A stretch of DNA of 32,761 nucleotides from Alphaproteobacteria bacterium (lineage in GTDB: Bacteria; Pseudomonadota; Alphaproteobacteria; ATCC43930; CGMCC-115725). The stretch lies in contig JAFASL010000859.1 of assembly GCA_019244535.1 (NCBI GenBank), forward strand, positions 1-32,761, written 5' to 3'. The position numbers and the translations under genes are program-made. The notes under the pieces were generated by a model. That model saw nothing but the letters and a program-made list of their open reading frames with translations. It searched no databases and had not been told where the DNA came from. How positions within the stretch are numbered: the first letter of the stretch is position 1; every line of letters begins with the position of its first letter. Positions 5,072 through 31,058 of the stretch are shown here, piece by piece.

Positions 5072-5091
5072 TTCCGGTTCCTCCCGCGAAC

Positions 5092-6300: not shown

Positions 6301-6397
6301 CTGCAATTCTCCCTCAGAAACCGGCCGCGCTTGGCGGCGCCGCGCGAGGATGGGATAATCACCCCTCGACGCATCGCGGGCAAGCGAGGGATCGACC

Positions 6398-7618
6398 ATG
6401 TCAGCCGTCACGCAGCGCTACAACGTTGGCGGAATATACCTGCAGCGGCCGTTCAAGATCCGCCGCCTCGGGCATTTCGGGTTCAATGTCGAGAAATTGC
6501 CGGAAGGCCGCGAGTTCTATGGCGACCTGCTCGGCTTTACCGCTGCCGATGCACTGGATTTCTCCAGGGCGCCGTGGTTCCCCAAAGACGCCGATCTGGG
6601 CGACCCGCGCGGCTATTTCATGCGCTACGGGACCGACCATCACGCCTTCGTCTTGTTCCCGAAGCGGGTCATGGATCATCGCGCCGACCGCAAATTTGCG
6701 CCCGAGGTGACGATCAACCAAATCACCTGGCAATGCGGTAGCCTCAAAGAGATCGTTGACGCCCACACCTATTTCGAGGAACAGCAAGTCCGCATCCAGC
6801 GCGTCGGCCGCGACATGCCGGGAAGCAACTGGCACGTCTACGTCTACGATCCGGACGGGCACACTAATGAATTCTATTACGGTATTGAGCAGATCGGCTG
6901 GAACCGCCTCAGCAAGCCGCGCGACATGTATTACCGCGGCTTCAACGAGAAGCCGGCATTGCCGCAGATGTCGGAAGCGGCCGAAGTAGCCGAGGCACAG
7001 CAGAAAGGCATCGACATCTTTTCCGGCCATCGTCCGCAGCCGCCCAACGGCGCCCATTATGATGTCGAGGGCGTCCTGTTGCCGCGGCCGTTTAAAATAA
7101 CGAAAGTCGGCCCGGTGGGCTTGTTTGTCGAGGACGTCGAACGCGCGGAGAATTTTTACACCGAGCGCCTCGGCTTTGTGCGCAGTGAGGAGAGCGTTTA
7201 TCGCGGCGCCCGCTGCGTCTTTCTGCGCTGCGGTGCCGAGCACCACAGTGTTGCGCTCTATCCAAAGGAATTGCGGCGCATATTGGGGTTCAGCGAGCAC
7301 ACGACGTGCATGTCGTTTGGCGTGGAGGTCGGCAGTTACAAGCAATTGCGGAAGGCGATCGAATTCTTAAAGGGACACGGAGTCACCTTTGTCAACTCGA
7401 TCCCGCCCGAGCTCCACCCCGGCATCGATTACACGGCCTTCGCGCTCGACCCCGACGGCCACTGCATCCAGCTCTATTATTACATGGAGCAAATCGGCTG
7501 GGACGGCCGGGTCCGCCCGGCCTCGGAGCGGCGGCGCGTCAACGGCCAATGGCCGGAGGCATTGGAGCCGCTGTCCGACACCTATGTCGACCAGGTCTTC
7601 CAAGGGCCGCTCGGATAA
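6398..7618 (+). CDS. VOC-family protein with two extradiol-dioxygenase-like domains
   Basis: The 406-residue protein contains two clearly homologous VOC (glyoxalase/extradiol dioxygenase) halves, about 18-170 and 229-371. Each starts RPFKI and ends DPDGH...EQIGW. The first half keeps His26 (LGHFGF), a His-His pair at 81-82 and Glu158 (NEFYY). The expected second metal His appears as Gln108 (INQITW). The second half has Pro239, Ser306 and Gln358 at those positions and keeps only the His-His pair (282-283). It is therefore related to ring-cleaving dioxygenases, but its metal site is atypical. ATG 6398 follows GCGAGGGA. It is divergent from the CoA-transferase, which suggests a shared catabolic theme. 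Confidence 0.85.
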   Translation: MSAVTQRYNVGGIYLQRPFKIRRLGHFGFNVEKLPEGREFYGDLLGFTAADALDFSRAPWFPKDADLGDPRGYFMRYGTDHHAFVLFPKRVMDHRADRKFAPEVTINQITWQCGSLKEIVDAHTYFEEQQVRIQRVGRDMPGSNWHVYVYDPDGHTNEFYYGIEQIGWNRLSKPRDMYYRGFNEKPALPQMSEAAEVAEAQQKGIDIFSGHRPQPPNGAHYDVEGVLLPRPFKITKVGPVGLFVEDVERAENFYTERLGFVRSEESVYRGARCVFLRCGAEHHSVALYPKELRRILGFSEHTTCMSFGVEVGSYKQLRKAIEFLKGHGVTFVNSIPPELHPGIDYTAFALDPDGHCIQLYYYMEQIGWDGRVRPASERRRVNGQWPEALEPLSDTYVDQVFQGPLG

Positions 7619-7620
7619 TC

Positions 7621-7690
7621 GTCGTCCCGGCGCAGGCCGGGACCCACGCCGCAGCGTTCTGAGCAGCGGGTCAATGGGTCCCGGTTCGCT
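7621..7690. repeat. palindromic intergenic repeat (GGGACCCA type)
   Basis: CCGGGACCCA at 7637-7646 is exactly inverted at 7675-7684 (TGGGTCCCGG). A nested hairpin, CCCGGC-GCAG-GCCGGG, lies at 7626-7641. This matches the style of abundant GTCGTCCCGG...GGCCGGGACCCA intergenic elements in alphaproteobacteria. It sits directly after the VOC stop and just before the broken gene tail, and could act as a terminator or mark the site where that gene was truncated. Confidence 0.75.
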
Positions 7691-7719
7691 ACGCGATCGC
7701 CGCCAGGCAAAGGCCAAAC

Positions 7720-7899
7720 TGCATTCCGGAAGCGCTTTTTCCCCGGCTTCGCGACTATTTCAGTGAGGTGCAGCAGGTCGAGCTGACCTTGCGCATTACA
7801 CTGTGCGGGTTTTTCAACAAGTTCAATGACGCGCTCAGCATCGAGGAAGAGCCTGAAGCCGCCGAGCGGTCGGCGGCAGTCAGCGCCTCCGCAGAATAA
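7720..7899 (+). pseudogene. remnant of a carboxymuconolactone decarboxylase (AhpD-like) gene, C-terminal part only
   Basis: This frame reads IPEALFPRLRDYFSEVQQVE followed by LTLRITLCGFFNKFNDAL and an acidic tail to TAA. It resembles the last helices of carboxymuconolactone decarboxylase/AhpD-like proteins (a yFs..e.vEL motif, then an NkfND-type helix). There is no plausible start: an in-frame TGA lies at 7660-7662, within the palindromic repeat. The piece therefore looks like the 3' end of a gene whose front was lost. It overlaps the end of the convergent methyltransferase by 20 bases. A complete member of the same broad family lies at the right edge, but it is not a close copy. Confidence 0.5.
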
Positions 7900-8632
7900 C
7901 AATATGACGGCCTTCGGGCTTCAACTCCGCAGTAAAACTGAAATCGTTGTACCAGCCGATAAAATCGAACTGCCTGCTGAGCTCGACAAGGGACAGAAAT
8001 TCCTGCGGGAAAAATATTTTAACGGGAACGCGGCCGTTGATGACCACAGTCCTGCCATGGTCGTCCACCGTGAAGGTCAGACACTCCTCATAGGTTTGCG
8101 CCACCGGATCAGTCAGCTCGGCGCGGTAGCGCGTATGGACGGTTACCCCACTTTGGCGCCGCGTCCAGCTCCGCTTGTAGTCATGAAAAATGCGAAACCA
8201 CACAAAGCTGTCCAATAAGTAGAGACTTCCCGGCGCCAGCACAGCGGCAATGCGGTCGAGGTGATCGACGAACTCGCGATTGGACCGGACGTAGAGTGAG
8301 CCGAGCAAGACATAGACGAGATCGAATGGGCCGAGAGCGCGATCGAGTTCTCGCATGTCGCCCTGGACAAACTCGGCGTCGATGCCGAGGCGACGCGCCT
8401 TCTCGCGGCCAAACTCGATCATCTCCGGGCTCAGGTCGAGCCCGCAATAAGCGTAACCCCGCTGGTGCCATTCCTCCAGATAAGGCGCGGTTCCGGCGCC
8501 GAGCTCGAAGACCCGGCTAACCTCGGCTTGGGAAAACCTCTCGATTGCGGCTTCGAAGAAGTCGATCTCGCCTGCCGGGTCGGTTGGGGCCAGGGCGATC
8601 GCGTAATAATGCGGGTAACGATACGCCTCCAT
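7880..8632 (-). CDS. class I SAM-dependent methyltransferase
   Basis: The 250-residue protein has a standard Rossmann methyltransferase fold. Motif I is VFELGAGTAPYL (41-52), the acidic end of strand 2 is in CGLDLSPEMIEF (63-74), and FVQGDMREL (88-96) marks the adenine-binding region. DLVYVLLGSLYV follows as motif IV. The C-terminal half is a beta-rich substrate domain. The acceptor is unknown. ATG 8632 lies eight bases after the stop of the GST-like gene, so the two are probably co-transcribed, although the ribosome site is weak. The long frame continuing upstream is antisense read-through of the GST gene. The 3' end overlaps the gene remnant on the other strand. Confidence 0.85.
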   Translation of the reverse strand: MEAYRYPHYYAIALAPTDPAGEIDFFEAAIERFSQAEVSRVFELGAGTAPYLEEWHQRGYAYCGLDLSPEMIEFGREKARRLGIDAEFVQGDMRELDRALGPFDLVYVLLGSLYVRSNREFVDHLDRIAAVLAPGSLYLLDSFVWFRIFHDYKRSWTRRQSGVTVHTRYRAELTDPVAQTYEECLTFTVDDHGRTVVINGRVPVKIFFPQEFLSLVELSRQFDFIGWYNDFSFTAELKPEGRHIVILRRR

Positions 8633-8640
8633 CGGGCCGT

Positions 8641-9606
8641 TCAGGCCGCTTTGGCCAATCGGCCGCGGTCGTGCGGTGCCGCAAAATCCAGTTCGGGGCC
8701 AAGCGGGATGATGCCGCTGGGATTGAGATTCCGCATGCCGCCGTAATAGCCGAGCTTGATTCGAGGAATGTCGACGGTCTCGGCGACCCCTGGCACCTGG
8801 TAGATGTCGCGGGTGTAATTCGACAGATTGTAATAATCGGCGAGCCGTCGCAGGTTGCATTTGAAATGGCTGTAATAGACTGCGTCGAAGCGTACCAATG
8901 TCGGGAACAGCCTCAGATCGGCTTCGGTAAATCGGTCGCCGGCGAGATAGCGCTGACGCCTCAACCGCGCTTCCAGGCTGTCGAGCGCTGCGAACAGCTT
9001 GCGAAAGCTGTCCTCGTAGGCGGCTTGGGTCCGGGCGAAGCCGCAGCGATAAACCCCGTTGTTGATCGCGTCATAGACAAAGGTGTTGGTCTCGTCGATC
9101 ACGCTGCGTATTGGCTCGGGGTAGAGATTGAGCGCCGCATCACCAAAATCGTCGAACTCGGAGTTCAGCATCCGAATGATCTCGGACGACTCATTGTTGA
9201 CGATTGTGCGGCTCTGCCGGTCCCACAATACCGGAACAGTGGCCCGGCCGGTGAAGCCGGAGCGGGCCGCGCTGTAGACTTGATGAACGTGGAAAATGCC
9301 ATTGACCGGCCGGAGATCATCGAAGCCGCGCGAATATGCCCAGCCCTGCCCCTTGGGCAGGTCGGACTCGAGGATGGGGATCGTATCCGCGAGGCCCTTC
9401 AGCTTGCGCATCAGCACCGTGCGATGCGCCCACGGGCATGAGGGAGCGGTGATCAGGTAGTAACGGCCGGCTTCTGCCTTGAAGCCCGAGGTTCCGTTGC
9501 GGGTCACGCGGTCACGGAACCCTGATTCCGGCCGCACAAAGCTGCCGTCGCTGCCAGTCATCAACGGCTCGTCATCGTGCCAGATGCCATTTACGAGCAT
9601 GCCCAT
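8641..9606 (-). CDS. Xi-class glutathione S-transferase, glutathionyl-hydroquinone reductase-like
   Basis: The 321-residue protein matches the Xi-class GSTs (YqjG/PcpF/ECM4 group). It has a long N-terminal extension beginning MGMLVNGIWHD and the catalytic PSCPWAHR motif with Cys57. The segments TVPVLWD and NNESSEIIRML form the glutathione-binding strand and helix. An all-helical C-terminal domain contains GDRFTEADLRLFPTLVRFD. These enzymes reduce glutathionyl-hydroquinones to hydroquinones, often in aromatic or quinone metabolism. ATG 9606 is preferred because GAGGGTGAG precedes it and MG-LVNG-W is the usual start; ATG 9624 is the alternative. It is followed by the methyltransferase. Confidence 0.9.
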   Translation of the reverse strand: MGMLVNGIWHDDEPLMTGSDGSFVRPESGFRDRVTRNGTSGFKAEAGRYYLITAPSCPWAHRTVLMRKLKGLADTIPILESDLPKGQGWAYSRGFDDLRPVNGIFHVHQVYSAARSGFTGRATVPVLWDRQSRTIVNNESSEIIRMLNSEFDDFGDAALNLYPEPIRSVIDETNTFVYDAINNGVYRCGFARTQAAYEDSFRKLFAALDSLEARLRRQRYLAGDRFTEADLRLFPTLVRFDAVYYSHFKCNLRRLADYYNLSNYTRDIYQVPGVAETVDIPRIKLGYYGGMRNLNPSGIIPLGPELDFAAPHDRGRLAKAA

Positions 9607-11998: not shown

Positions 11999-13219
11999 CT
12001 ATCTTTCGTTCGGCGCCGCCGCGCGCGAAGCTCGGCCGTCACTGGTCTCCGGCATCGCCGTCCAGAACAGCAAAAGCGCCGCAAATGCGCAGCCAGCCAG
12101 AAAAAGGAACGCCGCCGAGTAGCCGGCGCCATCGACGATGTAGCCCGCGACAGAATTGCTGAGCGCAGCACCCAGGCCCCAGGACGCCGATGCCGCCCCT
12201 TGAGCGAGGTTGTAGCGCCCGGTACCCTTTGTCAGATCGGCGATCACGATAAAAAAGAGCGCACCAAAGATGCCGGCGCCGACGCCGTCAAGCACTTGGA
12301 TCGAGACGAGCGCGTACGGGTTTTGGGTGAGTGTGTAGAGGATGCCGCGGACCGGCAACACCGCAAAGCCGGCTAGGAAAATCGGCTTGCGCCCCCAACT
12401 GTCGGCCTTGTGGCCGACCAGTATCGCCATCGGCACCATGACGAGCTGTGCGGTGATGATGCATGCCGCCATGAACAACGTTTCGGCGCCTGGATAGCTT
12501 TGAGCAAGCTTCTCGCCGAGCAGCGGCAACATCGCCGCATTGGCGAAATGAAACAATGTGATCGAGGCCGTGAAGATCAGCAGCGGTTTGCATTCCAGGA
12601 TGAGCCCCAAGCCGCTGGGCTGCCCGTCACGCTCCCGGTCGGAGCCGCGTGCGAGGCTGTGATCGATCGAGCGGGAATTGACCGTGAGGACGGCAAGAAC
12701 ACTCAACGCCGCAAGCGCCGAGACCAGCCAAAGAACAGCGCGAGGCGTCGATAGCCAGCCGGCAATCCCTGCGGTGATCGCCGTAAAGGCATTGCCCGCG
12801 TGGTTGAATGCCTCGTTGCGACCGACCCTTCGCGTGAAGAACTCAGGCCCGACAATGCCAAGCGAAATGGCCCCAACCGCCGCCGGGAAAACTGCATCGG
12901 CGCTGCCGATCACGGTCTGTGCGGCGGCGACCAGCCAGAAATTTGGAAGCAGCGAGATTGCGACCGCGCCAACCGCGACGGCGACTGCCGCCATGACGAT
13001 CAACGCTCGCTTCCCATGTGTCCAGTCGATCAGGGCGCCGAAGGGCGCACGGGCTGCCACAGTAGCAATGCCCGCCATCGTCATAACTACGCCGATTTCG
13101 CCGGCGTCCCAGTGCTGGCTCGAGAGCAGATAAATGGCGAGAAATGGGCCGAGTCCATCTTTGACGTCGGCCAAAAAGAAATTCAACCAATCAAGCGGCG
13201 CCTGGCCTTTCATTGGCAT
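11999..13219 (-). CDS. MFS transporter
   Basis: The product is about 406 residues with 12 predicted membrane segments. A loop-2/3 motif resembling the MFS signature is seen in APFGALIDWTHGKRALI, and again in the second half as GHKADSWGRKPIFLAGF. The central cytoplasmic loop is polar (DHSLARGSDRERDG). It begins at MPMKGQAPLDWLNFFLAD; ATG 13219 is chosen, with ATG 13213 and ATG 13243 also possible. It probably exports or imports a small molecule by proton coupling; the substrate is unknown. It is co-directional with, and 24 bases ahead of, the anion permease. The 230-base gap upstream shows no further gene. Confidence 0.86.
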   Translation of the reverse strand: MPMKGQAPLDWLNFFLADVKDGLGPFLAIYLLSSQHWDAGEIGVVMTMAGIATVAARAPFGALIDWTHGKRALIVMAAVAVAVGAVAISLLPNFWLVAAAQTVIGSADAVFPAAVGAISLGIVGPEFFTRRVGRNEAFNHAGNAFTAITAGIAGWLSTPRAVLWLVSALAALSVLAVLTVNSRSIDHSLARGSDRERDGQPSGLGLILECKPLLIFTASITLFHFANAAMLPLLGEKLAQSYPGAETLFMAACIITAQLVMVPMAILVGHKADSWGRKPIFLAGFAVLPVRGILYTLTQNPYALVSIQVLDGVGAGIFGALFFIVIADLTKGTGRYNLAQGAASASWGLGAALSNSVAGYIVDGAGYSAAFLFLAGCAFAALLLFWTAMPETSDGRASRAAAPNER

Positions 13220-13449: not shown

Positions 13450-14379
13450 ATGGAATTATCGAAGAAGGTCAAGACCGCGCTTGACGAAACTCGGATCTTG
13501 ATCCTTGGGGCGCAGGTCCTGCTCGGCTTCGGTTTTCGTGGGGTGTTCAGCGAAACCTTCGCCGGGCTCCCGGCGCATGTCCGCTATATGGACGGGGTCG
13601 GGCTCGGGCTGCTCGTCTGCACGGTCGCTTTGCTCATTGCTCCCGGGCCTTATCATCGGATCGTCGAGGGGGGCCAGGACAGCGGCCGGCTTCATGCCTA
13701 TACGACCGCGATAGCCGATCTGGCCTTGCTGCCGTTCGCATTGGCGCTGGGGATCGGCCTGTTCGTCGGCACGGAGGGGATATTTGCCGACAACGCGCTG
13801 GCGCTAAGGGCGGGCGCGGCAGGAGCCGGTCTGGCCCTGGCTCTGTGGTATGGCCTGCCGCAATTGCGTCGGAGATTTGTCGGTGAGAGGGAACGCATGA
13901 TTACTCGGGGCCAACGCAGTGAACGGGCCGATACGCCATTGCCGGCCAAAATCGAGCAATTGCTGACCGAGGCGCGCGTCATACTACCCGGCGCACAGGC
14001 CCTGTTCGGCTTTCAGCTTGCGATCGTGCTTACCCAGGCATTCGAGCAGCTTCCGAGAACATCGATGGTGGTGCATGCCGCAAGCCTGTTTCTGGTCGCG
14101 CTCGCCGTCGTGATGCTGATGGCGCCCGCTCCCTATCACCGGATTGTCTATGCCGGCGAGGACACCGAAGATGTGTACCGGATCGGCAGTGCACTCGTCA
14201 CTGCGGCAACCGTTCCGCTCGGTTTGGGTTTGGCGGGCGATGTCTACGTTGTGATCGCGAAGATCTCCGGATCGGCCGCCGTCGGGTCCGCAGCCGGCGC
14301 GTCTGTTTTCGTGGTCGTCAGCGCACTCTGGTACCTATACCCGCTTACTGTGGCTAGAACCCGCGGGCAGCGCCGTTAG
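13450..14379 (+). CDS. DUF6328-like membrane protein, tandemly duplicated
   Basis: The 309-residue protein consists of two homologous halves, about 6-140 and 166-300. Each has an ETR/EAR-x-ILxxGAQxLxGF start, a central APxPYHRIV motif (64-72 and 225-233), four hydrophobic segments and an ALWY end. The motifs match the DUF6328 family as I remember it, which is usually a single copy of about 150 residues. Function is unknown. The two copies would give about eight membrane spans, joined by a basic linker around 141-165. The ATG has no strong ribosome site. Its stop overlaps the convergent ribD stop by three bases. Confidence 0.75.
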   Translation: MELSKKVKTALDETRILILGAQVLLGFGFRGVFSETFAGLPAHVRYMDGVGLGLLVCTVALLIAPGPYHRIVEGGQDSGRLHAYTTAIADLALLPFALALGIGLFVGTEGIFADNALALRAGAAGAGLALALWYGLPQLRRRFVGERERMITRGQRSERADTPLPAKIEQLLTEARVILPGAQALFGFQLAIVLTQAFEQLPRTSMVVHAASLFLVALAVVMLMAPAPYHRIVYAGEDTEDVYRIGSALVTAATVPLGLGLAGDVYVVIAKISGSAAVGSAAGASVFVVVSALWYLYPLTVARTRGQRR

Positions 14380-20921: not shown

Positions 20922-21024
20922 GCAAGGGAGACCGGACGAACGACCCAGATCGGGGCTCGTTACGGCTGCTTCCTTCCGGACCTGACCGGGTTGGCGAGGG
21001 ACCTGTCCGCCGCCGGCCTCCCTC
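20922..21024 (-). ncRNA. ffs: small bacterial signal recognition particle RNA (4.5S)
   Basis: The minus strand contains the near-invariant Ffh-binding loop GGTCAGGTCCGGAAGGAAGC followed by AGCC. It lies inside a long hairpin whose ends pair: GGGAGGCCGG near 21023-21014 with CCGGTCTCCC near 20935-20926. Intermediate pairing such as CCCTCGCCAACCCGG against the distal arm is also evident. The RNA binds Ffh to target nascent membrane proteins. Ends are approximate by a few bases. It lies directly upstream of dnaX. Confidence 0.93.
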
Positions 21025-21087: not shown

Positions 21088-22224
21088 TCAATGGCGCATG
21101 AAATAGACGCGATAGAGCTGGTCGCGGAAGCTCTGGCTGGTGGCGAGCGCGGTCTGGAAATCGGTCTTGCCGAGCACGTAGGTGTCCACCTCGCCTTCGG
21201 CGACGACGGTGGCGTTGCGAGGTTCGCCGCTGATCAGCGCTACCTCGCCGAAGAAGTCCCCCGGCCCCAGCCGCGCCACTTCGTGATCGGCCCGGATGAC
21301 TTCGACCTCGCCATCCGAGACAAGAAAGAACTCCTCTCCGGGCTCCCCCTCTCGGATGATCGTCTCTCCCGCGGGGTAGTGGCGCTTCTTCATATGTTCG
21401 GCGACATCGGTGAGCTGGCGCGGCGTCAAGCTCTTGAACAACTCGATCGGGCGCAGGAATTCGCAAATCCGCAAAGCGTCGTGCAGAACCACGTCGGACA
21501 TGATCCTGCCGTCCACCATGTGGACTAGGCGGTCGGCCGAATCGATGATCCGGTGGTCATGCGTGACCATCATGACGGCCGCGCCATAATCGATCGTGGT
21601 CTGCTTGAGCAGATTGATGACATTCATCGTCGAATCTTTGTCGAGCGCGGCGGTTGGCTCGTCGGCCAGGATCAGCCGCGGCTGATTGACGAGGGCGCGG
21701 CCGATCGCCACCCGCTGGCGTTCGCCGCCCGACAGAAACCTCGGCTTGTATTCGATGCGGTGGCCCAGCCCGAGCCGCTCCAGGATCCCGACGCAACGCT
21801 GCTGCATGTCGGGGAGCGCACCATTTACGAGCTGCGCCGCCATCTTGACGTTTTCATAGGCCGACAGAGCATCGAACAGATTGTGCATCTGGAAGATGAA
21901 ACCGATGTCGCGCCGGACATCGACGAGTTCGCCGCCGCTGAGCCGAGACAGCTCGCGGCCGAGCACATCGATGCGGCCCTCGTGAGCCGAGCGCAACGCA
22001 CCAATGAGGGTCAATAGCGTGGTCTTTCCCGCTCCTGACGGGCCGGTCATCACGACGAGTTGACCCGCGGGGATCTCGATCGAGTTGCCGAATAGGACCT
22101 GGTTGCGGGCTTCGCCTTCCCCGTAATAGTGATTCAGACCGTGGACCCGCACGACGGGTTCCGGCGGGGAGGACAGCGCGGCTGGCGGCGCTTCGGTTCG
22201 CTCCGCGACAACGGCGGCGCACAT
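21088..22224 (-). CDS. ABC transporter ATPase (MacB/LolD/DevA type) fused to a cyclic-nucleotide-binding-like domain
   Basis: The 378-residue protein is longer than the usual 220-250 residues of DevA/LolD ATPases. Residues about 23-250 form the ATPase: Walker A GPSGAGKT (61-68), Q-loop Gln112, signature LSGGE (164-168), Walker B LILADEP (184-190) and H-loop His222. Residues about 255-375 form a Crp/cNMP-type beta-barrel. It has GETIIREGEPGEEFFLVSDG and the phosphate-cassette-like FGEVALISGEPRNATV, including Glu327 and Arg336. The domain may gate export in response to a nucleotide or another ligand (inference). Its ATG overlaps the stop of the upstream permease (TGATG). Earlier in-frame starts exist but only within the permease gene. 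Confidence 0.9.
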   Translation of the reverse strand: MCAAVVAERTEAPPAALSSPPEPVVRVHGLNHYYGEGEARNQVLFGNSIEIPAGQLVVMTGPSGAGKTTLLTLIGALRSAHEGRIDVLGRELSRLSGGELVDVRRDIGFIFQMHNLFDALSAYENVKMAAQLVNGALPDMQQRCVGILERLGLGHRIEYKPRFLSGGERQRVAIGRALVNQPRLILADEPTAALDKDSTMNVINLLKQTTIDYGAAVMMVTHDHRIIDSADRLVHMVDGRIMSDVVLHDALRICEFLRPIELFKSLTPRQLTDVAEHMKKRHYPAGETIIREGEPGEEFFLVSDGEVEVIRADHEVARLGPGDFFGEVALISGEPRNATVVAEGEVDTYVLGKTDFQTALATSQSFRDQLYRVYFMRH

Positions 22225-23378
22225 CAGAACACCTCGGCCGGATCGGCGGTGATCACGCGGCGGACAGCAAGCGCCGCCGAGACCAGGCACATCCCCAAGG
22301 TCAGCCCGAGACTGACGAGCGCCACATAGGCGCTCATATGGAGCGGCAACAGCGCAAGCCTGCCAATCAGGTAATAGAGCAATATGCTCAGCAGCATCGC
22401 CGGCACCCAGCCCGCCAGCGCGTTGAACGCCGCTTGCCCGAAAACCACGCGCAGCAGATAGCCGGTTCGATAGCCCATCGCTTTCAACGTCGCATATTGC
22501 GGCAGCTGGTCCGAAAGATCTGTGTAAGTAACTTGATAAGAGATCAGCATTCCAACCACAAAGCCGACAATCGTGCCCATCGCAAAGATCGGCCCCGCGG
22601 AAGACACCGCCGCCTGGAAGTTGCGCTCGAACTCGATGAGCTCCGGTTTCGTGAACACGGCGATCGTCTCGGGTAATGCCTTTCGCAACGATTGCTGGAC
22701 CATCGCCGGATCATCCCCCGGGCGTACTTTGACGACGCCGACATCGACCGCAGAGGGATTGCCGGCCGGGCCGCGGAGCAGGCTGGTGAAAGTGCGGTCG
22801 CTCATGACTACGGTGCCGTCGCTCTGAAAATCGGGACCCAGGGCGAAGTCGCCAACAATCTTGACCTTCACGCCGTTGAGTTCGGCTTCCGCCGCGCCGC
22901 TGTCCATTCCAAGAAAGCGTCGCGCCCGCCGATCGACGAGAACAGAATTCGTTTCCTTCAATTTGTCGCGGCCGGCGTTCACATCGGCAAATGAAAAGAC
23001 CGGCGCGTCGGGGTCAAAGCCAAAGGCGCGGACCAGAAAGATTTTGCCGTCGGCCGGGCTCCTCCAGAAAAAGTTGAACCAATCCGCGTAAAGCGGGCGG
23101 ACGCTTGCCACCCCCGGCACGTTGCGCGCCTGATCGAGTTCGGCACGAGGAAACGGGTCGCGTGTGGCGAACTGATATTTATGGGCGCTCTGCAACACAA
23201 TGTCGGCGTCGAGGCCGCGGATGACCACGAGCGCGCTTTCGAAAAATGCCTGCTCGAAGCCGAGCTGCATCAGCATCAGCAGCACCGCAAAACCGATGCC
23301 GCCAGCGGAGCGCAGCAGCCGCGATTTGTTGGAAACGAGATTGCGCCAGGCGAGCGGCACCGAGCCCGGCCGCACCAT
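22224..23378 (-). CDS. ABC transporter permease, DevC/FtsX-like
   Basis: The product is about 384 residues with the MacB/FtsX-type layout: one N-terminal membrane helix (about 25-50), a large periplasmic domain (about 55-250), then three C-terminal membrane helices. VPLAWRNLVSNKSRLLRSA at the start and LPQYATLKAMGYRTGYLLRV before the last helices are DevC-like. It is homologous to the next permease upstream and of the same length, so the two probably form a heterodimer. ATG 23378 is chosen because it aligns with the start of its partner; a GTG four codons upstream is possible. It is coupled to the ATPase gene by a one-base overlap. Confidence 0.88.
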   Translation of the reverse strand: MVRPGSVPLAWRNLVSNKSRLLRSAGGIGFAVLLMLMQLGFEQAFFESALVVIRGLDADIVLQSAHKYQFATRDPFPRAELDQARNVPGVASVRPLYADWFNFFWRSPADGKIFLVRAFGFDPDAPVFSFADVNAGRDKLKETNSVLVDRRARRFLGMDSGAAEAELNGVKVKIVGDFALGPDFQSDGTVVMSDRTFTSLLRGPAGNPSAVDVGVVKVRPGDDPAMVQQSLRKALPETIAVFTKPELIEFERNFQAAVSSAGPIFAMGTIVGFVVGMLISYQVTYTDLSDQLPQYATLKAMGYRTGYLLRVVFGQAAFNALAGWVPAMLLSILLYYLIGRLALLPLHMSAYVALVSLGLTLGMCLVSAALAVRRVITADPAEVF

Positions 23379-23440
23379 TCCGGCAAGCACCGTTGTCGGA
23401 TGTCGGACAGGGGAGGAAGCGGTCGCCAGAACCCGCCTCT

Positions 23441-24595
23441 CTAGAACACGTCGGCGGGCGCTGCGCGGCGCAGAGTGCCGACCGAGAGCAGCGCCGAAAT
23501 CAAGGCCATCGCCACAGCGGCTACAAGCACGGTGAAAAGGCGCATTTCACTCATCGCCACCGGCAACAATGTCTGCCGGCGGATGACCGAGTAGAGCCCC
23601 ACGGCGGCACCGAGGGCGGGGATAAACCCGGCGACGACGATCAGCAGCGACATCGCGCTGACTGTGGCGGCGAGTGACCTGTCAGGATAGCCGATCGCCT
23701 TCAATGTCGCGAATTGCGGCAGCTGCCGGCTGACCTGAGTCGAGACGATCTGGTAGACGATCATGATCCCGACCACAAACGAGATCAGCAGCCCCGAGCC
23801 GAAAATGATCCCGACCGAGGTGCGCGTCGTCCAATAGGCTGTCTCGTGCGCCTCCAGCGACGTGCGCGTGAACACCTGCAGGCCGGAGCCGAGGGTCTTC
23901 CGCAACTCGTCGGCGGCGTGGTCGGGGTCCACCCCGGGCTTCAGCTGGATGGCGCCGAGATTGACGATGCTGAGGCCGCGCTGCGGGAACAGCCGGGCAA
24001 AATTGGCCGCGCTCGCCAGCACGACGCCTAGGCCCATGAACCCCGTGCCCAGCACGTACTGCCCGCCGATCGTAATTTTTCGATCACCGATTTCAACCAC
24101 TCGGCCGGTGTCGAGCGGTCCGAACATCGGGCGGGTGGCGCTGTCGACGAGCACCGTGTCGGCGCGCTCGAGCACACCAGTCTGCCGATTGATGCTTTCG
24201 GGAACGAACACCTGGCTGGCCGGGTCGAAGCCGATCACGAACACGTCCGGCCATACGCCGTCTTCGCCGCTCTTCCATTTCGCAAAACCGAAATAGATCG
24301 GCGTCGCCACTTCCACATCGGGCGAGCGCCGCGCCGCATCGAGACGGTCGAGCGGAAAGGTCCCGGGCTGGGCCTGATACTCGTATTGGTCCGAGGCGAG
24401 CAGCAGGTCGAACCGCATATTGTCGTAGAGCAACAGTCCTCCTCGAGGCACGGCATAGAAAAAGCCGAGCTCGATAAAGACAAGGAGGATCGCCATGAAA
24501 ATGCCGATCAGTGCGAGCCCGGTCCGTCTCTTGTCATAGGTCAAAATTCGCCAGGCGAGCGGAACGGTCGGGCGAAAATGAAACAGGCCGGTCAT
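23441..24595 (-). CDS. ABC transporter permease, DevC/FtsX-like (first of pair)
   Basis: This 384-residue protein has the same design as its neighbour: FRPTVPLAWRILTYDKRRTG leads into a first membrane helix with AILLVFIELGFFYAV, followed by a periplasmic domain and three C-terminal helices. LPQFATLKAIGYPDRSLAAT corresponds to the LPQYATLKAMGY of the partner. Both proteins end in a (P)A-(D/E)VF tail. ATG 24595 fits the family start although the ribosome site is weak. It heads the three-gene export operon and is divergent from the sulfur/molybdenum operon. No membrane-fusion (HlyD/DevB) gene lies next to it. Confidence 0.88.
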   Translation of the reverse strand: MTGLFHFRPTVPLAWRILTYDKRRTGLALIGIFMAILLVFIELGFFYAVPRGGLLLYDNMRFDLLLASDQYEYQAQPGTFPLDRLDAARRSPDVEVATPIYFGFAKWKSGEDGVWPDVFVIGFDPASQVFVPESINRQTGVLERADTVLVDSATRPMFGPLDTGRVVEIGDRKITIGGQYVLGTGFMGLGVVLASAANFARLFPQRGLSIVNLGAIQLKPGVDPDHAADELRKTLGSGLQVFTRTSLEAHETAYWTTRTSVGIIFGSGLLISFVVGIMIVYQIVSTQVSRQLPQFATLKAIGYPDRSLAATVSAMSLLIVVAGFIPALGAAVGLYSVIRRQTLLPVAMSEMRLFTVLVAAVAMALISALLSVGTLRRAAPADVF

Positions 24596-24764: not shown

Positions 24765-25214
24765 ATGCCCCGTCTCATGATCAACGGACAGACACGAGAG
24801 GTAGAGGTCGATCCCGACACACCGTTGTTGTGGGTCCTGCGCGACAGTTTGGGTCTGACCGGCACCAAATACGGTTGCGGCATCGCTCAGTGCGGCGCTT
24901 GCACGGTTCATATCGACGGGGTCGCGACCCGCTCCTGCTCGGTCCCTGTCAGCGCCGCCGAAGGCACCCAGATCACGACGATCGAGGGTCTCCCCGCAAA
25001 TGGCGGCCTGCACCCGGTGCAACGAGCGTGGATCGCCCATGATGTCCCGCAATGCGGGTATTGCCAGAGCGGCATGATCATGGCGGTGGCCGCGCTCCTC
25101 AAAGATAAGCCGCAACCGACCGACGCCGAGATCGACGCTGCGGTGACCAATATTTGCCGTTGCGGCACCTATGCGCGCATTCGCGCGGCGATTCACACCG
25201 CCGCGCAGGCGTGA
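24765..25214 (+). CDS. (2Fe-2S)-binding subunit of a molybdenum hydroxylase (IorA-like)
   Basis: The 149-residue protein is the small electron-transfer subunit of the xanthine oxidase family, as in isoquinoline 1-oxidoreductase. A plant-type [2Fe-2S] domain uses Cys38, Cys43, Cys46 and Cys58 ([10 protein letters not shown]...SC). The second, helical domain uses Cys97, Cys100, Cys131 and Cys133 (QCGYCQSGM and NICRCGTY). It has no signal peptide, so it would be carried out folded with the Tat-exported large subunit (inference from the family). The ATG follows a strong GAGGAG. It is the first gene of the operon and lies 18 bases before the large subunit. Confidence 0.92.
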
Positions 25215-25232
25215 GCGGGAGGGGAGCACGCC

Positions 25233-27392
25233 ATGACACACATGCCGCAGATCAGCCGCCGCTTTTTCCTGACGACCGCAGCCGCGGCCAGCGGGGGGCT
25301 CGCGCTCGGTTTTCACCTGCCGCAAGGTGTTGCCGCGGCCGGCGCGGCGCCCGGTCCCGCCGAAGTCACTGCCTGGGTGGTAATTCAGCCCGATGATGCA
25401 GTGATCATCCGCGTCGCCCGCTCCGAAATGGGGCAGGGCATCACCACTTCATTGCCGATGCTGGTGGCCGAGGAACTCCAGTGCGACTGGAGCAAGGTGC
25501 GCTTCGAATTCCCCTCACCCGAAGAAAATCTGCGGCGCAAGCGCGCCTGGGGCGAGATGTCGACGGGCGGCAGCCGCTCCGTGCGCACCTCGCAGGAGTA
25601 CTTGCGCAAGGCTGGCGCAGCCGCGCGCGAAATGCTGATCGCCGCGGCGGCGGCGCAATGGGGGGTTCCGGCTGCGGAGTGCCAGGCTGCCAACAGCATC
25701 ATCACACATAAGGCGAGCGGCCGCACTCTGCGCTACGGCGAGGTCGCAGAGGCGGCGTCCAAGCTGCCGCCCCCGTCCGAGCCGAAGCTCAAGGACCCGA
25801 AGGACTGGACACTGCTGGGAACGCCGCAGAAACGGCTGGACACCCTCGAAAAGGTGACCGGGAAGCCGATCTACGGCATCGATGTCCGCGTGCCCAACAT
25901 GCTTTATGCCGCCATTGTCCAGTGCCCGGTGTTCGGCGGGACACCCAAATCCTACGACGAGACGAAAATCCGCGGCCTCAAAGGCGTCCGACAGGTCGTG
26001 CAGCTGCCCAACGCAGTGGCCGTGGTCGCCGACAGCTGGTGGCAGGCGAAGACCGCGGTCGACGCGCTGCCGGTAACCTGGGACGAAGGGCAGAGCGGCA
26101 AGGTCTCGAGCACCAGCATTGCTGAGTTTCTGCGCGCCGGTCTTGCCGCTGCGGACGCGGCAGTGATCCGCAAGGATGGCGATGTCGATGCGACGCTCGC
26201 CAGTGCCGCGAAGCGCATCGAGGCCGAATATGGGGCGCCTTTTCTGAGCCACGCGACGATGGAGCCGCAGAACTGCACGGCGCATGTCACCCCCGACAAA
26301 GTAGAGGTCTGGGTTTCCACCCAGAGCGGCGAAGCGGCGCTCGCCGCCGCCGCGGCGGCGGCCGAGGTGCCGCCGGAGAAGGTGGTCGTGCACAAGACGA
26401 TGCTTGGCGGCGGCTTCGGCCGGCGCGGCGCGGTACAGGATTATGTCCATCAGGCGGTGTTGGTGGCGAAGGCGGTCGGGCACCCGGTCAAGCTGTTGTG
26501 GACGCGCGAGGAGGACATCCGCCACGATTTCTATCGTCCGGTGGCAATGGCGAAGTTCACCGCCGGACTCGACACTACGGGGATGCCCGTCGGATGGCGG
26601 GTGCGCGTGACCGGCCCGTCGATCCTCGCCAATTTGTTCCCGCAGCGGCTCACAAACGGCGTCGATCAGTCCTTTGCCAACGGCTTTACCGACGAGATGG
26701 CCTACAACGTGCCAAACTACGAGGTCGGCTACGCGATGCGCACGACGCACGTGCCGGTCGGCTTCTGGCGCTCGGTCAACCACTCGCAGAACGGCTTTTT
26801 CCGCGAATCCTTTATCGACGAGATGGCACAGGCCGCGGGCCAGGATCCATACCAATACCGTCGGAAATTGCTGAGCAAGGATCCGGTACGGCTCGCCGTA
26901 CTGGACGCGGCGGCGCAAAAGGCGGGCTGGGGCAACCCCACGGCTTCCGGGGTCTCCCGCGGCATTGCGCTGGTGGAGGCGTATGGTAGCCTGTGCGCGC
27001 AGGTAGCCGAAGTTTCGGTGGGAGGCAAGGGTGAGGTCCGCGTCCATCGTGTCGTCGCATCGCTCAACACCGGCCATGTCGTCAACCCGGAGATCCTGCG
27101 GGCCCAGACCGAAAGCGCTATCGTCTACGGATTGAGCGCAGCGCTGTACGGTGCGATCACAATCGAGAACGGCCGCGTCCAGCAGGGCAATTTCGACGAT
27201 TACGAGATGCTGCGGCTGGCCGATATGCCGGTCGTCGAGACGGTGCTCGCGCCGAGCGGCGGGTTCTGGGGCGGCGGCGGAGAGATCGGAGTACCGCCGC
27301 TGGCCCCGGCAGTCTGCAACGCGATCTTCGCGGCGACCGGCAAACGCATCCGCTCGTTGCCGCTCAAGGGCCAGGACCTCAAGCGGGTGTGA
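25233..27392 (+). CDS. molybdopterin-binding large subunit of a xanthine-oxidase-family hydroxylase (IorB-like), Tat-exported
   Basis: The 719-residue protein starts with a twin-arginine signal, ISRRFFLTTAAAASGGLALG (RR at 9-10), so it should fold in the cytoplasm and act in the periplasm. Landmarks of the single-subunit IorB/aldehyde-dehydrogenase type are RSEMGQGITTSLPMLVAEEL, GEMSTGGSRSVR, HATMEPQNCTAHV, GGGFGRRGAVQDYVHQA and the catalytic Glu684 in GGGGEIGVPPLAPAVCNAIF. The family hydroxylates N-heterocycles or oxidises aldehydes with water as the oxygen source, feeding electrons to cytochromes. The substrate here is unknown. Its stop overlaps the next cytochrome start (GTGA), tying it to fcc and sox genes. 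Confidence 0.92.
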   Translation: MTHMPQISRRFFLTTAAAASGGLALGFHLPQGVAAAGAAPGPAEVTAWVVIQPDDAVIIRVARSEMGQGITTSLPMLVAEELQCDWSKVRFEFPSPEENLRRKRAWGEMSTGGSRSVRTSQEYLRKAGAAAREMLIAAAAAQWGVPAAECQAANSIITHKASGRTLRYGEVAEAASKLPPPSEPKLKDPKDWTLLGTPQKRLDTLEKVTGKPIYGIDVRVPNMLYAAIVQCPVFGGTPKSYDETKIRGLKGVRQVVQLPNAVAVVADSWWQAKTAVDALPVTWDEGQSGKVSSTSIAEFLRAGLAAADAAVIRKDGDVDATLASAAKRIEAEYGAPFLSHATMEPQNCTAHVTPDKVEVWVSTQSGEAALAAAAAAAEVPPEKVVVHKTMLGGGFGRRGAVQDYVHQAVLVAKAVGHPVKLLWTREEDIRHDFYRPVAMAKFTAGLDTTGMPVGWRVRVTGPSILANLFPQRLTNGVDQSFANGFTDEMAYNVPNYEVGYAMRTTHVPVGFWRSVNHSQNGFFRESFIDEMAQAAGQDPYQYRRKLLSKDPVRLAVLDAAAQKAGWGNPTASGVSRGIALVEAYGSLCAQVAEVSVGGKGEVRVHRVVASLNTGHVVNPEILRAQTESAIVYGLSAALYGAITIENGRVQQGNFDDYEMLRLADMPVVETVLAPSGGFWGGGGEIGVPPLAPAVCNAIFAATGKRIRSLPLKGQDLKRV

Positions 27393-27751
27393 GCGCATCT
27401 CACCGCCGAACGCCCACCCTAGCCCTCGCCCGCGAGCGGGGGAGGGAATGGGAGGGGGCCGGGTGGCGAAGGTCGGCTTGGTTGCTGGCGATGCCGACGC
27501 TCTTTGCTTTTGCCGCAGCGGCGGCGGAGCCGCCGTCCGGTGCGTCTTCATGTTCGGGGTGCCATCCGCCGAGCGCTTCGGCGGACGCCAAAGTGGCACC
27601 GTTGCGCGGGCGAAACCCTGCAGAAATAGTCGCTGCGATGGAGGCGTTCCGCTCCGGACAGCGCCCATCGACGGTGATGGGGCGGATTGCAAAGGGCTTC
27701 TCGGAAGAGGAGATCCGGAGAATCGCCGCTTGGGTGGCGGAGCAGCCGTGA
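27389..27751 (+). CDS. fccA: flavocytochrome c sulfide dehydrogenase cytochrome subunit (FccA/SoxE-like)
   Basis: This monoheme cytochrome has the c-heme motif Cys55-S-G-Cys58-His59 and the family-typical STVMGRIAKGFSEEEIRRIAAW with a probable axial Met97. A signal peptide is clear (GWRRSAWLLAMPTLFAFAAAAA), so it acts in the periplasm, accepting electrons from the FccB flavoprotein. The only start lying before the basic region is GTG 27389, which overlaps the IorB stop (GTGA). This puts a palindromic repeat inside the leader (about residues 12-20). TTG 27482 and ATG 27491 are alternatives but would drop the positive n-region. Its stop overlaps the fccB start. Confidence 0.85.
   Translation: MSASHRRTPTLALARERGREWEGAGWRRSAWLLAMPTLFAFAAAAAEPPSGASSCSGCHPPSASADAKVAPLRGRNPAEIVAAMEAFRSGQRPSTVMGRIAKGFSEEEIRRIAAWVAEQP
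27423..27446. repeat. palindromic repeat within the fccA leader
   Basis: CCCTCGCCCGC (27423-27433), a GA loop and GCGGGGGAGGG (27436-27446) form a hairpin with one mismatch. It belongs to the same CCCTC(T/G)CCC style as the element at 2005-2095. Here it lies inside the likely coding frame of fccA, between the start codon and the signal-peptide core. Confidence 0.65.
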
Positions 27752-29007
27752 TCAGAACGACGCGGCGAACATTTCTGACCGGCGGAGCCGCTGCGCTGTT
27801 GCCGAAGCCATCGCTGGCGCAGTCGAAGCCGCGCATCATAGTCGTCGGCGGCGGCTTTGCCGGCGCGACCTGCGCTCGGGCGCTGCGGCGCGCCGATCCA
27901 CGGCTCGCGGTAACGCTGGTCGAGCCTAACCCGATCTTCACCGCCTGTCCGTTTAGCAACTCGGTGATCGCCGGCCTGCGCGATATCGCGGCACAGCATT
28001 TTCACTACGATGCGATCCGCGGTGAGGGCGTCGCGGTCCTGGCAGAACAGGCGACTAAGGTCGACCCGCAGGCTCGCCGGGTCACGCTGCGCGGCGGGTC
28101 GGGGCTGGATTACGACCGGCTGGTCATGGCGCCGGGGATTGCCATCCGCTGGGATGCGCTGTCCGGCTACGACGAGGCAGCGGCAGCCGTGATGCCGCAC
28201 GCCTGGATGGCCGGCGACCAGACGCTGCTGCTGCACCGTCAGCTCGAAGCGATGCCCGATGGCGGGACGGTCGTGATCTCCGTGCCGGCCAATCCGTTTC
28301 GTTGTCCGCCGGGCCCTTATGAACGGGCGAGCCTCATCGCCTACTACTTGAGCAAGGCCAAACCCCACTCGAAGCTGATCGTGCTCGACGCCAAGGACAA
28401 TTTTTCGAAACAGCGGCTGTTCCAAGACGCCTGGCGGCAGCTCTACCCGGAGCTCATCGAGTGGGTATCATTGTCGAGTGGCGGGAAGGTAGTCTCGGTC
28501 GATGCGAAGACCCGTACGCTAACGACCGATTTCTCCAGCTACAAGGCCGATGTGGCCAATGTGATTCCGCCGCAGCGGGCGGCTGGGATCGCCCAAATCG
28601 CGGGTGTAGCCGACAGCACCGGCTGGTGTCCGATCGACCCCGCAACCTTCGAGTCGCGACTGCAGCCGAACATTCATGTGATCGGCGATGCGGCGATCGC
28701 CGGCGCCGTGCCGAAATCCGCCTTCGCGGCCAATGCCGAGGCCAAGATGTGCGCCGTCGCGGTGAGGGCGCTGCTGCGCGGGGAGGCCCCGCCGCCGATG
28801 AAGCTGATCAACACCTGCTACAGCCTGGTGGCGCCTGATTACGGTATATCGATCGCCGGGGTTTATCACCCGTCCGGCGGACAGCTGGCCGATGTCGAAG
28901 GCGCGGGTGGAGTGAGCCCGATCGATGCGCCCGCCGGTTTTCGTGCCCTCGAGGCGGCTTATGCGCAAGCCTGGTTCCAGACGATCACGGCAGAGACGTT
29001 TGGGTGA
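27748..29007 (+). CDS. fccB: flavocytochrome c sulfide dehydrogenase flavoprotein subunit (FccB/SoxF)
   Basis: The 419-residue flavoprotein oxidises sulfide in the periplasm and passes electrons to the cytochrome subunit. It has a Tat signal (TTRRTFLTGGAAALL), an FAD-binding IIVVGGGFAGATCARAL (30-46), and Cys67 in TACPFSNSVI, matching the cysteine that covalently anchors FAD. The redox disulfide pair is Cys186 (FRCPPGPYERASLIAYYL) and Cys357 (INTCYSLVAPDYGISIAGVY). HVIGDAAIAGAVPKSAFAANAEA (310-332) is the second FAD contact. GTG 27748 overlaps the fccA stop (GTGA). The 3' end overlaps soxX by 47 bases. Confidence 0.93.
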   Translation: MIRTTRRTFLTGGAAALLPKPSLAQSKPRIIVVGGGFAGATCARALRRADPRLAVTLVEPNPIFTACPFSNSVIAGLRDIAAQHFHYDAIRGEGVAVLAEQATKVDPQARRVTLRGGSGLDYDRLVMAPGIAIRWDALSGYDEAAAAVMPHAWMAGDQTLLLHRQLEAMPDGGTVVISVPANPFRCPPGPYERASLIAYYLSKAKPHSKLIVLDAKDNFSKQRLFQDAWRQLYPELIEWVSLSSGGKVVSVDAKTRTLTTDFSSYKADVANVIPPQRAAGIAQIAGVADSTGWCPIDPATFESRLQPNIHVIGDAAIAGAVPKSAFAANAEAKMCAVAVRALLRGEAPPPMKLINTCYSLVAPDYGISIAGVYHPSGGQLADVEGAGGVSPIDAPAGFRALEAAYAQAWFQTITAETFG

Positions 29008-29446
29008 TGCGCTCGCCGCGGTTTTGGCGCTGTTGGCGTCGGCTGCAGCTGACGCGCAGTGCGAGGAACTGCGGCCCTTTAAGATCGTCGGCGATGCGAT
29101 CCCCGCCGCGCTGACCGAAACCGCCGGCGACGCGACGCGCGGCCGGGCGATCATCTTGGATCGCAGGCTCGGCGCGTGCCTGCTGTGCCACACCGGTCCG
29201 TTTCCCGAAGAGAAATTCCAGGGCACTCTGGCGCCGGATCTGACCGGGGCCGGCTCGCGCTGGTCTGAGGGCGAGTTGAGATTGCGTCTCGTCGACCCGA
29301 CGCGCCTCAACCCGCAGACGACTATGCCGGCCTATTATCGGGTGGAGGGGCTGACCCGTGTCGCTCAGGCGTGGCGCGGCAAGCCGGTCCTAACCGCCGA
29401 GCAGATCGAGGATGTGGTAGCGTTCCTGTCGAGCTTGCGTGACTGA
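28961..29446 (+). CDS. soxX: sulfur-oxidation c-type cytochrome SoxX
   Basis: SoxX pairs with SoxA to couple thiosulfate (or other sulfane sulfur) oxidatively to the SoxYZ carrier. The 161-residue protein has a basic N terminus and a signal peptide ending near ASAAADAQ. The single heme motif is Cys73-L-L-Cys76-His77, with a probable axial Met122 in NPQTTMPAYYRV. The region GACLLCHTGPFPEEKFQGTLAPDLTG is typical of SoxX. ATG 28961 lies inside the end of fccB; TTG 29000 is an alternative but would shorten the charged region. It is followed by soxY after 16 bases. Confidence 0.9.
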   Translation: MRKPGSRRSRQRRLGDALAAVLALLASAAADAQCEELRPFKIVGDAIPAALTETAGDATRGRAIILDRRLGACLLCHTGPFPEEKFQGTLAPDLTGAGSRWSEGELRLRLVDPTRLNPQTTMPAYYRVEGLTRVAQAWRGKPVLTAEQIEDVVAFLSSLRD

Positions 29447-29462
29447 CGGAGGTCATCCGGGA

Positions 29463-29969
29463 GTGGTGCGCGAGAGGTCCGGTCGATGCTCCTTCTCCGC
29501 CTTTGGGGGTGGAGAGGGCAGCACGTCGCCGACGCGGCGTCGACTGCTGTTCGTGACCGCCGGGGCGGGGCTCGCATTGTTGGTTCCCCCAGCAGACGCG
29601 ACCGAGGCGGCGATGGCCGAAGCCATCCGCCAACTCGTCGGCGAGGCGCCGCTCGAGCCCGGAAAGGTCAAGCTCGAATTGCCGTCGATCGTCGAAAACG
29701 GCAACACCGTGCCCTTGACCGTGTCGGTCGAGAGCCCGATGACAGAAGCCGACCACGTCGAGAGCATCCATATTTTCAATCAGAAAAATCCGCAGCCATT
29801 TGTCGCAGCGGTCCATCTCGGTCCGCGCACCGGCAAGGCTTATGTCGCCACCCGCATCCGACTGGCCGACTCGCAGCGCATCGTGGCGATCGCAAAGCTG
29901 TCGGACGGCAGCTTTCGTTCGGGCGGCGCCGATGTGATCGTGACCCTGGCGGCCTGTACCGAGCAGTGA
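29463..29969 (+). CDS. soxY: sulfur carrier protein SoxY with an atypical C-terminal tail
   Basis: SoxY carries sulfur intermediates on a C-terminal cysteine arm. The product is about 168 residues with a Tat-like signal (SPTRRRLLFVTAGAGLALLV). The body is recognisable from PGKVKLELPSIVENGNTVPL, VESIHIFNQKNPQP and TRIRLADSQRIVAIAKLSDG. The carrier Cys165 is present, but the tail reads VTLAACTEQ instead of the canonical GGCGG. GTG 29463 is chosen because GGAGG lies 10 bases upstream; GTG 29439, overlapping the soxX stop, is also in frame. soxZ follows after seven bases, so a SoxYZ heterodimer is expected. Confidence 0.9.
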   Translation: MVRERSGRCSFSAFGGGEGSTSPTRRRLLFVTAGAGLALLVPPADATEAAMAEAIRQLVGEAPLEPGKVKLELPSIVENGNTVPLTVSVESPMTEADHVESIHIFNQKNPQPFVAAVHLGPRTGKAYVATRIRLADSQRIVAIAKLSDGSFRSGGADVIVTLAACTEQ

Positions 29970-29976
29970 TGAGCCG

Positions 29977-30297
29977 ATGGCGCGGGTATTGATCAACCTT
30001 CCGCAACGTGCAAAACGCGGCGACATCATGGAGATCAAGACCTTGATCCAGCACCCGATGGAAACCGGCTATCGCCTCGACAACAAGGGCGTCGCGATCC
30101 CGCGCGACATCATCAACCGCTTCACCTGCACCTATAACGGCGACGAGGTGTTCCAGGCCGAGCTGTTCCCGGCGATCTCCGCCAACCCGTTCCTCGCGTT
30201 TTCGACGGTCGCAACGGAAAGCGGCGAACTGGTGTTCAGCTGGACCGACGACCGCGGCCAAACCCAGACCGAGACCCGCCAGATCACTGTCGAATGA
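29977..30297 (+). CDS. soxZ: thiosulfate oxidation carrier complex protein SoxZ
   Basis: The 106-residue protein has the full SoxZ pattern: RAKRGDIMEIKTLIQHPMETGYR at the start, PRDIINRFTCTYNGDEVFQAEL in the middle, and SANPFLAFSTVATESGELVFSWTDDRG near the end. SoxZ forms the immunoglobulin-like partner that stabilises SoxY in the periplasm. It lacks its own signal, as usual, and travels with Tat-exported SoxY. Its stop overlaps the soxA start (ATGA). Confidence 0.97.
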   Translation: MARVLINLPQRAKRGDIMEIKTLIQHPMETGYRLDNKGVAIPRDIINRFTCTYNGDEVFQAELFPAISANPFLAFSTVATESGELVFSWTDDRGQTQTETRQITVE

Positions 30298-31058
30298 ACT
30301 TCTTGCTCCGGCCGCTGGTCGCCTTGGCCACAACAATTGCGCTGGCGGCCGCACCGGACGAGAGGCGTTCGGGCTACGACATTGCCGGCCCCGAAATCCG
30401 CGCAATGCAGGACGACGATACAGCGAATCCGGGGAATCTATGGGTGTTGCAAGGCGAAACGCTGTGGGGCAAGCCGACCGGAGCCGCGGACCGGTCTTGC
30501 GCTGATTGTCACGGCGACGCGCAAATGACCATGAAGGGCGTCGCGGCGCGTTATCCGGCTTTCGATGCGGTGCTCGCCCGCCCCCTCGACCTCGAGCAGC
30601 GGATCAACCAATGCCGAACCGAACATCAGAAGGCGGAGCCGCTCGCCTGGGAGAGCGAAGATCTCCTGGCTGTGACCGCATTTGTCGCCCGTCAATCGCG
30701 CGGCCTGCCGATCACGGTGTCCGCCAGCCTCGAATTGCGCCCGTTCCTCGCCTTGGGCAAGCAACTGTTCGAGCAGCGCGAGGGTCAACTGAACCTGTCG
30801 TGCAGCCAGTGCCACGATGACAATTGGGGCAAGCAGCTGGCCGGCAATCTAATCCCGCAGGGACACCCCACCGGATACCCTATCTATCGCCTCCAATGGC
30901 AAAGCCTTGGCTCATTGCAGCGGCGTTTGCGCAATTGTATGACGGGCCTGCGGGCGGAACCCTTCGAATACGGCGCTCCGCAAGCCATTGCTCTCGAATT
31001 CTACCTCATGGAGCGGGCTCGCGGTATGCCGATGGACGCTCCGGCCGTGCGCCCTTAG
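30294..31058 (+). CDS. soxA: diheme sulfur-oxidation cytochrome SoxA
   Basis: SoxA with SoxX catalyses the first oxidative coupling of a sulfur substrate to SoxY. The 254-residue protein has a short signal peptide (MNFLLRPLVALATTIALAAA) and two c-heme motifs at Cys69-Cys72-His73 and Cys170-Cys173-His174. Cys107 (INQCRTEHQ) and Cys215 (RLRNCMTGLRAEPF) are the expected axial or persulfidated cysteines. It is thus the two-heme form. It is the last gene of the operon, coupled to soxZ by ATGA and convergent with the ECF sigma gene 12 bases on. Confidence 0.95.
   Translation: MNFLLRPLVALATTIALAAAPDERRSGYDIAGPEIRAMQDDDTANPGNLWVLQGETLWGKPTGAADRSCADCHGDAQMTMKGVAARYPAFDAVLARPLDLEQRINQCRTEHQKAEPLAWESEDLLAVTAFVARQSRGLPITVSASLELRPFLALGKQLFEQREGQLNLSCSQCHDDNWGKQLAGNLIPQGHPTGYPIYRLQWQSLGSLQRRLRNCMTGLRAEPFEYGAPQAIALEFYLMERARGMPMDAPAVRP

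Follow-up and report, generated by a model that had tools for sequence, protein, structure and literature searches.

The glycolipid exporters DevBCA/HgdBC of heterocystous cyanobacteria combine DevC (TIGR01185) permeases with a DevA-type ATPase in one operon, and DevBCA transports glycolipids (PMC8277102). In type VII ABC proteins, ATP drives the movement of periplasmic domains instead of the passage of a substrate through the membrane (PMC5985334), and members of this type that work without an adaptor include LolCDE, which extracts lipoproteins, and YbbAP-TesA, which extracts hydrophobic compounds (PMC12646458). Regulatory domains on ABC proteins have also been described. The ATPase of OpuCA and BusA (OpuA) carries a second-messenger-binding domain that controls transport (PMC10243994), the ATPase Rv2564 of Mycobacterium tuberculosis carries PF00027 (PMC4886424), and the cyclic-nucleotide-binding (CNB) domain fused to HetC, a peptidase-containing ABC exporter of Nostoc, is required for function in vivo and in vitro bound ppGpp but not cAMP (PMC10986499).

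Here, we analysed a window of 32,761 nucleotides (the whole stretch of DNA under study) from a soil alphaproteobacterium, which encodes a three-gene membrane machine with a CNB domain on its motor protein. Compared to DevBCA/HgdBC, the locus has two different DevC paralogues rather than one, a CNB domain fused to the ATPase, and no adjacent DevB. It resembles LolCDE and YbbAP-TesA, which draw hydrophobic substrates from the inner membrane, in being of type VII without an adaptor, and its two permeases recall the LolC/LolE heterodimer; however, the ATPases of those systems have no ligand-binding domain, and the ATPase studied here scored only 202.6 bits against LolD (TIGR02211), far under the cut-off of 307.75. 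Rv2563/Rv2564, whose architecture is MacB-like, and Rv0072/Rv0073 share a MacB-like permease with the locus (PMC7761784), but have one permease gene per ATPase and are annotated as glutamine transporters. We likened these mycobacterial pairs to the locus by their published description; their ATPases were reportedly listed as cNMP-binding proteins by McCue et al. in 2000. HetC differs in the N-terminal position of its CNB domain, in its transporter type and in its in vitro ligand, and OpuCA and BusA differ as compatible-solute importers that use CBS domains and c-di-AMP instead of a CNB domain and a cyclic nucleotide (cNMP). The kind of protein in which a CNB domain is attached to an ABC transporter is already known; the combination of a tandem DevC heterodimer, a CNB domain on DevA and a lost DevB is new. 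A literature search covering few subscription journals found no paper describing this combination, and none on a type VII ABC machine that cAMP or cGMP controls directly by allostery. To our knowledge, such control has not been shown for any type VII machine.

Gene layout, permeases and ATPase

Three intact minus-strand ORFs, running in one direction with no frameshift and packed as an operon, encode permease 1, permease 2 and the ATPase-CNB protein, in that order. The features of the locus were as follows.

23441..24595, minus strand: permease 1 (DevC paralogue P1), 384 aa; TIGR01185 290.0 bits; FtsX (PF02687); P1 clade
22224..23390, minus strand: permease 2 (DevC paralogue P2); TIGR01185 309.2 bits; MacB_PCD 33 bits; P2 clade
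21088..22224, minus strand: ATPase-CNB fusion protein, 378 aa; ABC_tran and cNMP_binding; DevA-type
21502..22155, minus strand: DevA-type nucleotide-binding domain (NBD); TIGR02982 295.7 bits; invariant columns in 19 orthologues
21139..21384, minus strand: CNB domain core; PF00027 82.1 bits; fold match
21205..21252, minus strand: phosphate-binding cassette FGEVALISGEPRNATV, residues 325-340; conserved in orthologues

A gap of 50 bp separates permease 1 from permease 2, which is 388 aa long from a GTG or 384 aa from an in-frame ATG at 23378 and whose TGA is overlapped by the ATG of the ATPase gene. Both permeases matched the NCBIfam devC model along their whole length, permease 2 scoring over the cut-off of 290.35 and permease 1 just under it. 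FtsX was found in both and MacB_PCD (PF12704) in permease 2. Hydropathy predicted four transmembrane (TM) segments in permease 1, with a periplasmic domain of ~215 aa between TM1 and TM2, and permease 2 was alike. Both permeases are thus predicted to follow the type VII (mechanotransmission) plan, in which a protein of the FtsX/MacB fold family has four TM segments and TM1 is parted from TM2 by a large periplasmic domain.

The motifs of the ATPase, comprising Walker A (GPSGAGKTT), the Q-loop, the signature (LSGGERQR), Walker B (LILADEPTAALD) and the H-loop (THD), were intact, and their columns were invariant among 19 orthologues. The ATPase part, which matched Pfam ABC_tran at 108.9 bits, is similar to MacB, LolD, YbbA and FtsE; its best NCBIfam match, by 93 bits, was DevA (TIGR02982), at 0.1 bit below the cut-off of 295.8. 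Non-transporting type VII members such as FtsEX exist (PMC5985334), and the locus could encode an FtsEX-like regulatory complex that uses ATP-driven movement of its periplasmic domains to switch a periplasmic enzyme or partner. We regard this as quite improbable, as the proteins scored as DevC and DevA, with FtsE and LolD well under their cut-offs, and no conserved gene for a periplasmic partner was adjacent.

The two permeases were 35% identical. In a maximum-likelihood tree of 33 permeases, every P1 fell in one clade and every P2 in another (support 100/100 each), with the first planctomycete permease grouping with P1 (98/95) and the second with P2 (100/99). Because the planctomycete pair divides in the same way, the duplication predates the split or transfer between these phyla, and the retention of P1 and P2 together matches the prediction for an obligate heterodimer. 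The existence of two old, separate clades therefore supports obligate heterodimerization. A preliminary description of this DNA had called the locus an ABC exporter with two homologous DevC-like permeases and an ATPase and had implied a heterodimer; the intact ORFs confirmed the genes, the TIGR01185 and TIGR02982 scores support the DevC/DevA assignment, and a heterodimer agrees with the behaviour of the permeases as two fixed paralogues in the tree.

Several other features of the window were recorded. A small bacterial SRP RNA (RF00169, 56.9 bits; 20924-21021, minus strand) directly follows the ATPase-CNB gene and precedes a DnaX-like gene (20902-19115). A sulfur-oxidation cluster (27389-31058, plus strand) encodes a cytochrome c, a flavocytochrome c sulfide dehydrogenase, a SoxX-like cytochrome, SoxY, SoxZ and SoxA, and adjoins a molybdopterin aldehyde dehydrogenase pair (24765-27392). 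At 13450-14379 (plus strand), a 309-aa membrane protein contains two tandem copies of DUF6328 (PF19853, two stretches).

The CNB domain and its ligand

The C-terminal third of the ATPase, described earlier as cNMP-binding-like, matched PF00027 (cNMP_binding) well over the cut-off of 27.5 (E 2.9e-23; 85.4 bits for the same domain in the PF00027 search of the genome) and resembled in sequence cAMP- and cGMP-binding domains whose structures have been solved. When the domain was modelled alone (pLDDT 85.4), the top Foldseek match was the cAMP-bound CNB-B domain of PKA RI-alpha (TMq 0.86, rmsd 1.9 Å), with MloK1 of M. loti and PKG domains ranking close after it. A spurious or chance barrel is ruled out by the E-value, the sequence similarity and the fold match. 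The full-length AlphaFold model had a moderate pLDDT of 78.6, and the relative placement of the NBD and CNB domain was left out of interpretation.

The cassette FGEVALISGEPRNATV retained every cAMP determinant checked, and 19 full-length orthologues shared the consensus FGE-x-A-L-[IL]-[ST]-G-x-x-R-N-A-T. F325, G326, E327, L330 and G333 were invariant in all 19 fused orthologues, the phosphate-binding R336 was present in 18 (Cys in Nitrospina) and A338 likewise in 18, A329 was present in 17 and replaced by Ser in the other two (A or S in 19/19), and residue 337 was Asn in 17. The CNB domain overall was far more variable than its cassette (36-91% identity to the window's domain), and the conservation of the cassette rules out a degenerate pocket for the window's family. 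By position, E327, A329 and R336 match E200, A202 and R209 of PKA RI-alpha; judged by these residues, the cassette, with its ribose-binding Glu and phosphate-binding Arg, is that of a canonical CNB pocket. The lack of a ligand pocket in structural models had been named beforehand as something that would refute the preliminary description; the model instead matched cAMP- and cGMP-bound structures and the pocket residues were conserved, so that the description was not refuted on this point. A C-terminal Arg in the last helix, R377, was conserved in 18 of the 19 orthologues; from a hand alignment, we take it to correspond to the lid Arg in the last helix of MloK1-type domains, as a lead.

At the position of Asn337, PKA has Ala and PKG has Thr, which favours cGMP; with neither of these present, cAMP is the likelier ligand, weakly so. 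The predicted ligand is thus a 3',5'-cyclic nucleotide, more probably cAMP than cGMP. It is also conceivable that the domain instead binds ppGpp, some other nucleotide or a metabolite, or that it serves as a ligand-free structural dimerization module, given that HetC showed no response to cAMP and bound ppGpp with a Kd of 59 μM (PMC10986499), and that the Nitrospina fusion persists with Cys in place of the phosphate-binding Arg. We consider this unlikely, as the phosphate cassette of the window is canonical and conserved, and replacement of the A202 and R209 equivalents in kinetoplastid PKA is what converts the site from cyclic-nucleotide to nucleoside binding, so that the nucleoside-binding enzymes have lost exactly the Arg and Ala that are retained here (PMC10959531).

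A ligand source for a cyclic-nucleotide pocket exists in trans, since the genome (98% complete) contained 35 class III cyclase domains, along with 11 CNB-domain matches. A neighbouring cyclase was considered as a local signal source, and none was detected near the cassette or its orthologues at the searched loci, where only receiver-domain matches were found; any signal would thus act in trans. Elsewhere, on contig C221 of genome G000 (L149), a CNB-domain protein (match at 4853-5113, minus strand) is encoded next to a large gene for a class III cyclase (5447-8779, plus strand), with a second cyclase at 12381-12899. A few kilobases ahead of the cassette, G007 encodes an MloK1-like ion channel with a CNB domain, and G002 apparently encodes another (L031 1244-2494; L029 2-769).

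Distribution of the fusion and absence of DevB

A search for the ATPase-CNB architecture and its gene neighbours across genomes, as the preliminary description had proposed, showed that the fusion recurs. A whole-protein search of the order found it in 11 of 43 genomes, which belong to 2 of 12 genera; beyond the order, a phylum-wide sample of 398 genomes contained a single additional case, G274. A GTDB contig scan added fusions from a planctomycete, three Magnetospirillum, Azospira, one member of the Oxalobacteraceae and Nitrospina. All fusion ORFs that were kept were open, and the weaker matches (L051-L119) held only one further fused ATPase-CNB, L083, a duplicate of that in G007. Such a rare and patchy spread is what an accessory system that moves horizontally would be expected to show.

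Genes flanking the family loci, identified by eye from sequence, included GlnE, a ClC channel, a radical SAM protein, an amidohydrolase, PEPCK and an IorA-like protein. They varied by species, and no conserved neighbour hinting at a substrate was found across the family loci; with no cyclase detected at the searched loci either, gene context reveals neither signal nor substrate. Outside the family, an NTE-family patatin phospholipase with CNB domains is encoded directly downstream of the planctomycete DevB-DevC-DevC-DevA-CNB operon (L044 6328-9132). In two Magnetospirillum loci (L046 5875-8040; L049 9084-11294), an MsbA-like exporter that also ends in a CNB domain is encoded directly downstream of a DevB-DevC-DevA-CNB operon, such that two different CNB-bearing ABC transporters adjoin. 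The phospholipase and MsbA-like neighbours weakly point to lipids and a common cyclic-nucleotide signal.

Every locus was queried with two DevB-like proteins. No DevB adaptor gene was found in the window, and none of the 11 family loci gave a DevB-like match. The region upstream of permease 1 was readable in nine of these, all of which lacked DevB, and the contigs of G001 and G038 end inside the operon and give no view of it; the upstream stretch was short in some of the nine (~350 bp in G008 and ~630 bp in G037), with the gene there being a different one and not DevB. By contrast, the permease was immediately preceded by a DevB-like gene in G077, G057, G051, G274, the planctomycete, the Oxalobacteraceae member, Azospira and all three Magnetospirillum, Nitrospina being the exception among outside relatives, with a weak generic match only, on the opposite strand. 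An orphan DevB elsewhere in the genome was also sought, and no match exceeded the cut-off of 129, the best reaching 56.8 bits with partial coverage of the model; ten generic HlyD-like matches were found. As DevB was absent from all readable family loci and no match genome-wide was over the cut-off, adaptor loss is a trait of the family and not a contig accident. Tandem permeases occur together with DevB in the planctomycete and G274 loci, and the simplest reading of these arrangements is that the family lost DevB after the tandem arrangement arose.

An ordinary tripartite DevBCA-like exporter, with its membrane-fusion protein encoded elsewhere and a CNB domain that only tunes it, would be consistent with the HlyD-like matches and with the DevB-like genes upstream of the homologues in Planctomycetaceae, Magnetospirillum, Azospira, Oxalobacteraceae and G274, and there is precedent in Anabaena, where HgdD, the outer-membrane partner of DevBCA, is encoded apart (PMC8277102). 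We consider this unlikely, because the best DevB match in the genome was so far under the cut-off and adaptor loss is common to the whole family, across two genera. The preliminary description had stated that DevBCA/MacAB systems need a membrane-fusion protein, which is not adjacent; its absence next to the operon was upheld, but "need" was too strong, as the related LolCDE, FtsEX and YbbAP do without an adaptor (PMC5985334, PMC12646458).

Proposed working and significance

Overall, we lean slightly towards a type VII machine that is modulated by cNMP, works without an adaptor and extracts a hydrophobic substrate; cNMP gating and the nature of the substrate are the inferred parts of this view. 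The machine would be assembled from a heterodimer of P1 and P2 and two copies of the ATPase with its C-terminal CNB domain. The CNB domains would occupy the cytoplasmic, membrane-distal base of the ATPase dimer, the place also taken by the regulatory domains of MetN, MalK and OpuA-type ATPases, and would bind a cyclic nucleotide there. Movement of the C-terminal lid helix may then change NBD closure, such that the level of the second messenger would set the pumping rate. Without an adaptor, the assembly would probably not be a tripartite pump and would be more like LolCDE or YbbAP, with ATP-driven movement of the permeases lifting a lipid-like or lipidated substrate out of the inner membrane. 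A lipid-like substrate is the best guess because LolCDE, YbbAP-TesA and DevBCA handle lipoproteins, hydrophobic compounds and glycolipids, respectively. The observation in the preliminary description was sound and its reading largely reasonable, and the ligand or second-messenger gating that it suggested is plausible.

The more specific proposal, that the family is an adaptor-free and obligately heterodimeric DevC branch whose ATPase uses its CNB domain as a direct gate on the extraction of a membrane substrate, making it a type VII machine under second-messenger control, is put forward tentatively, with the odds somewhat against it. If true, the family would have changed, on losing DevB, from tripartite export to extraction from the inner membrane, and the family offers a natural comparison of DevC systems with and without an adaptor. 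The compact, conserved three-gene cassette with its textbook pocket is a convenient test system for cNMP control of type VII machines, and it could help to interpret the unexplained Rv2563/Rv2564 of M. tuberculosis.
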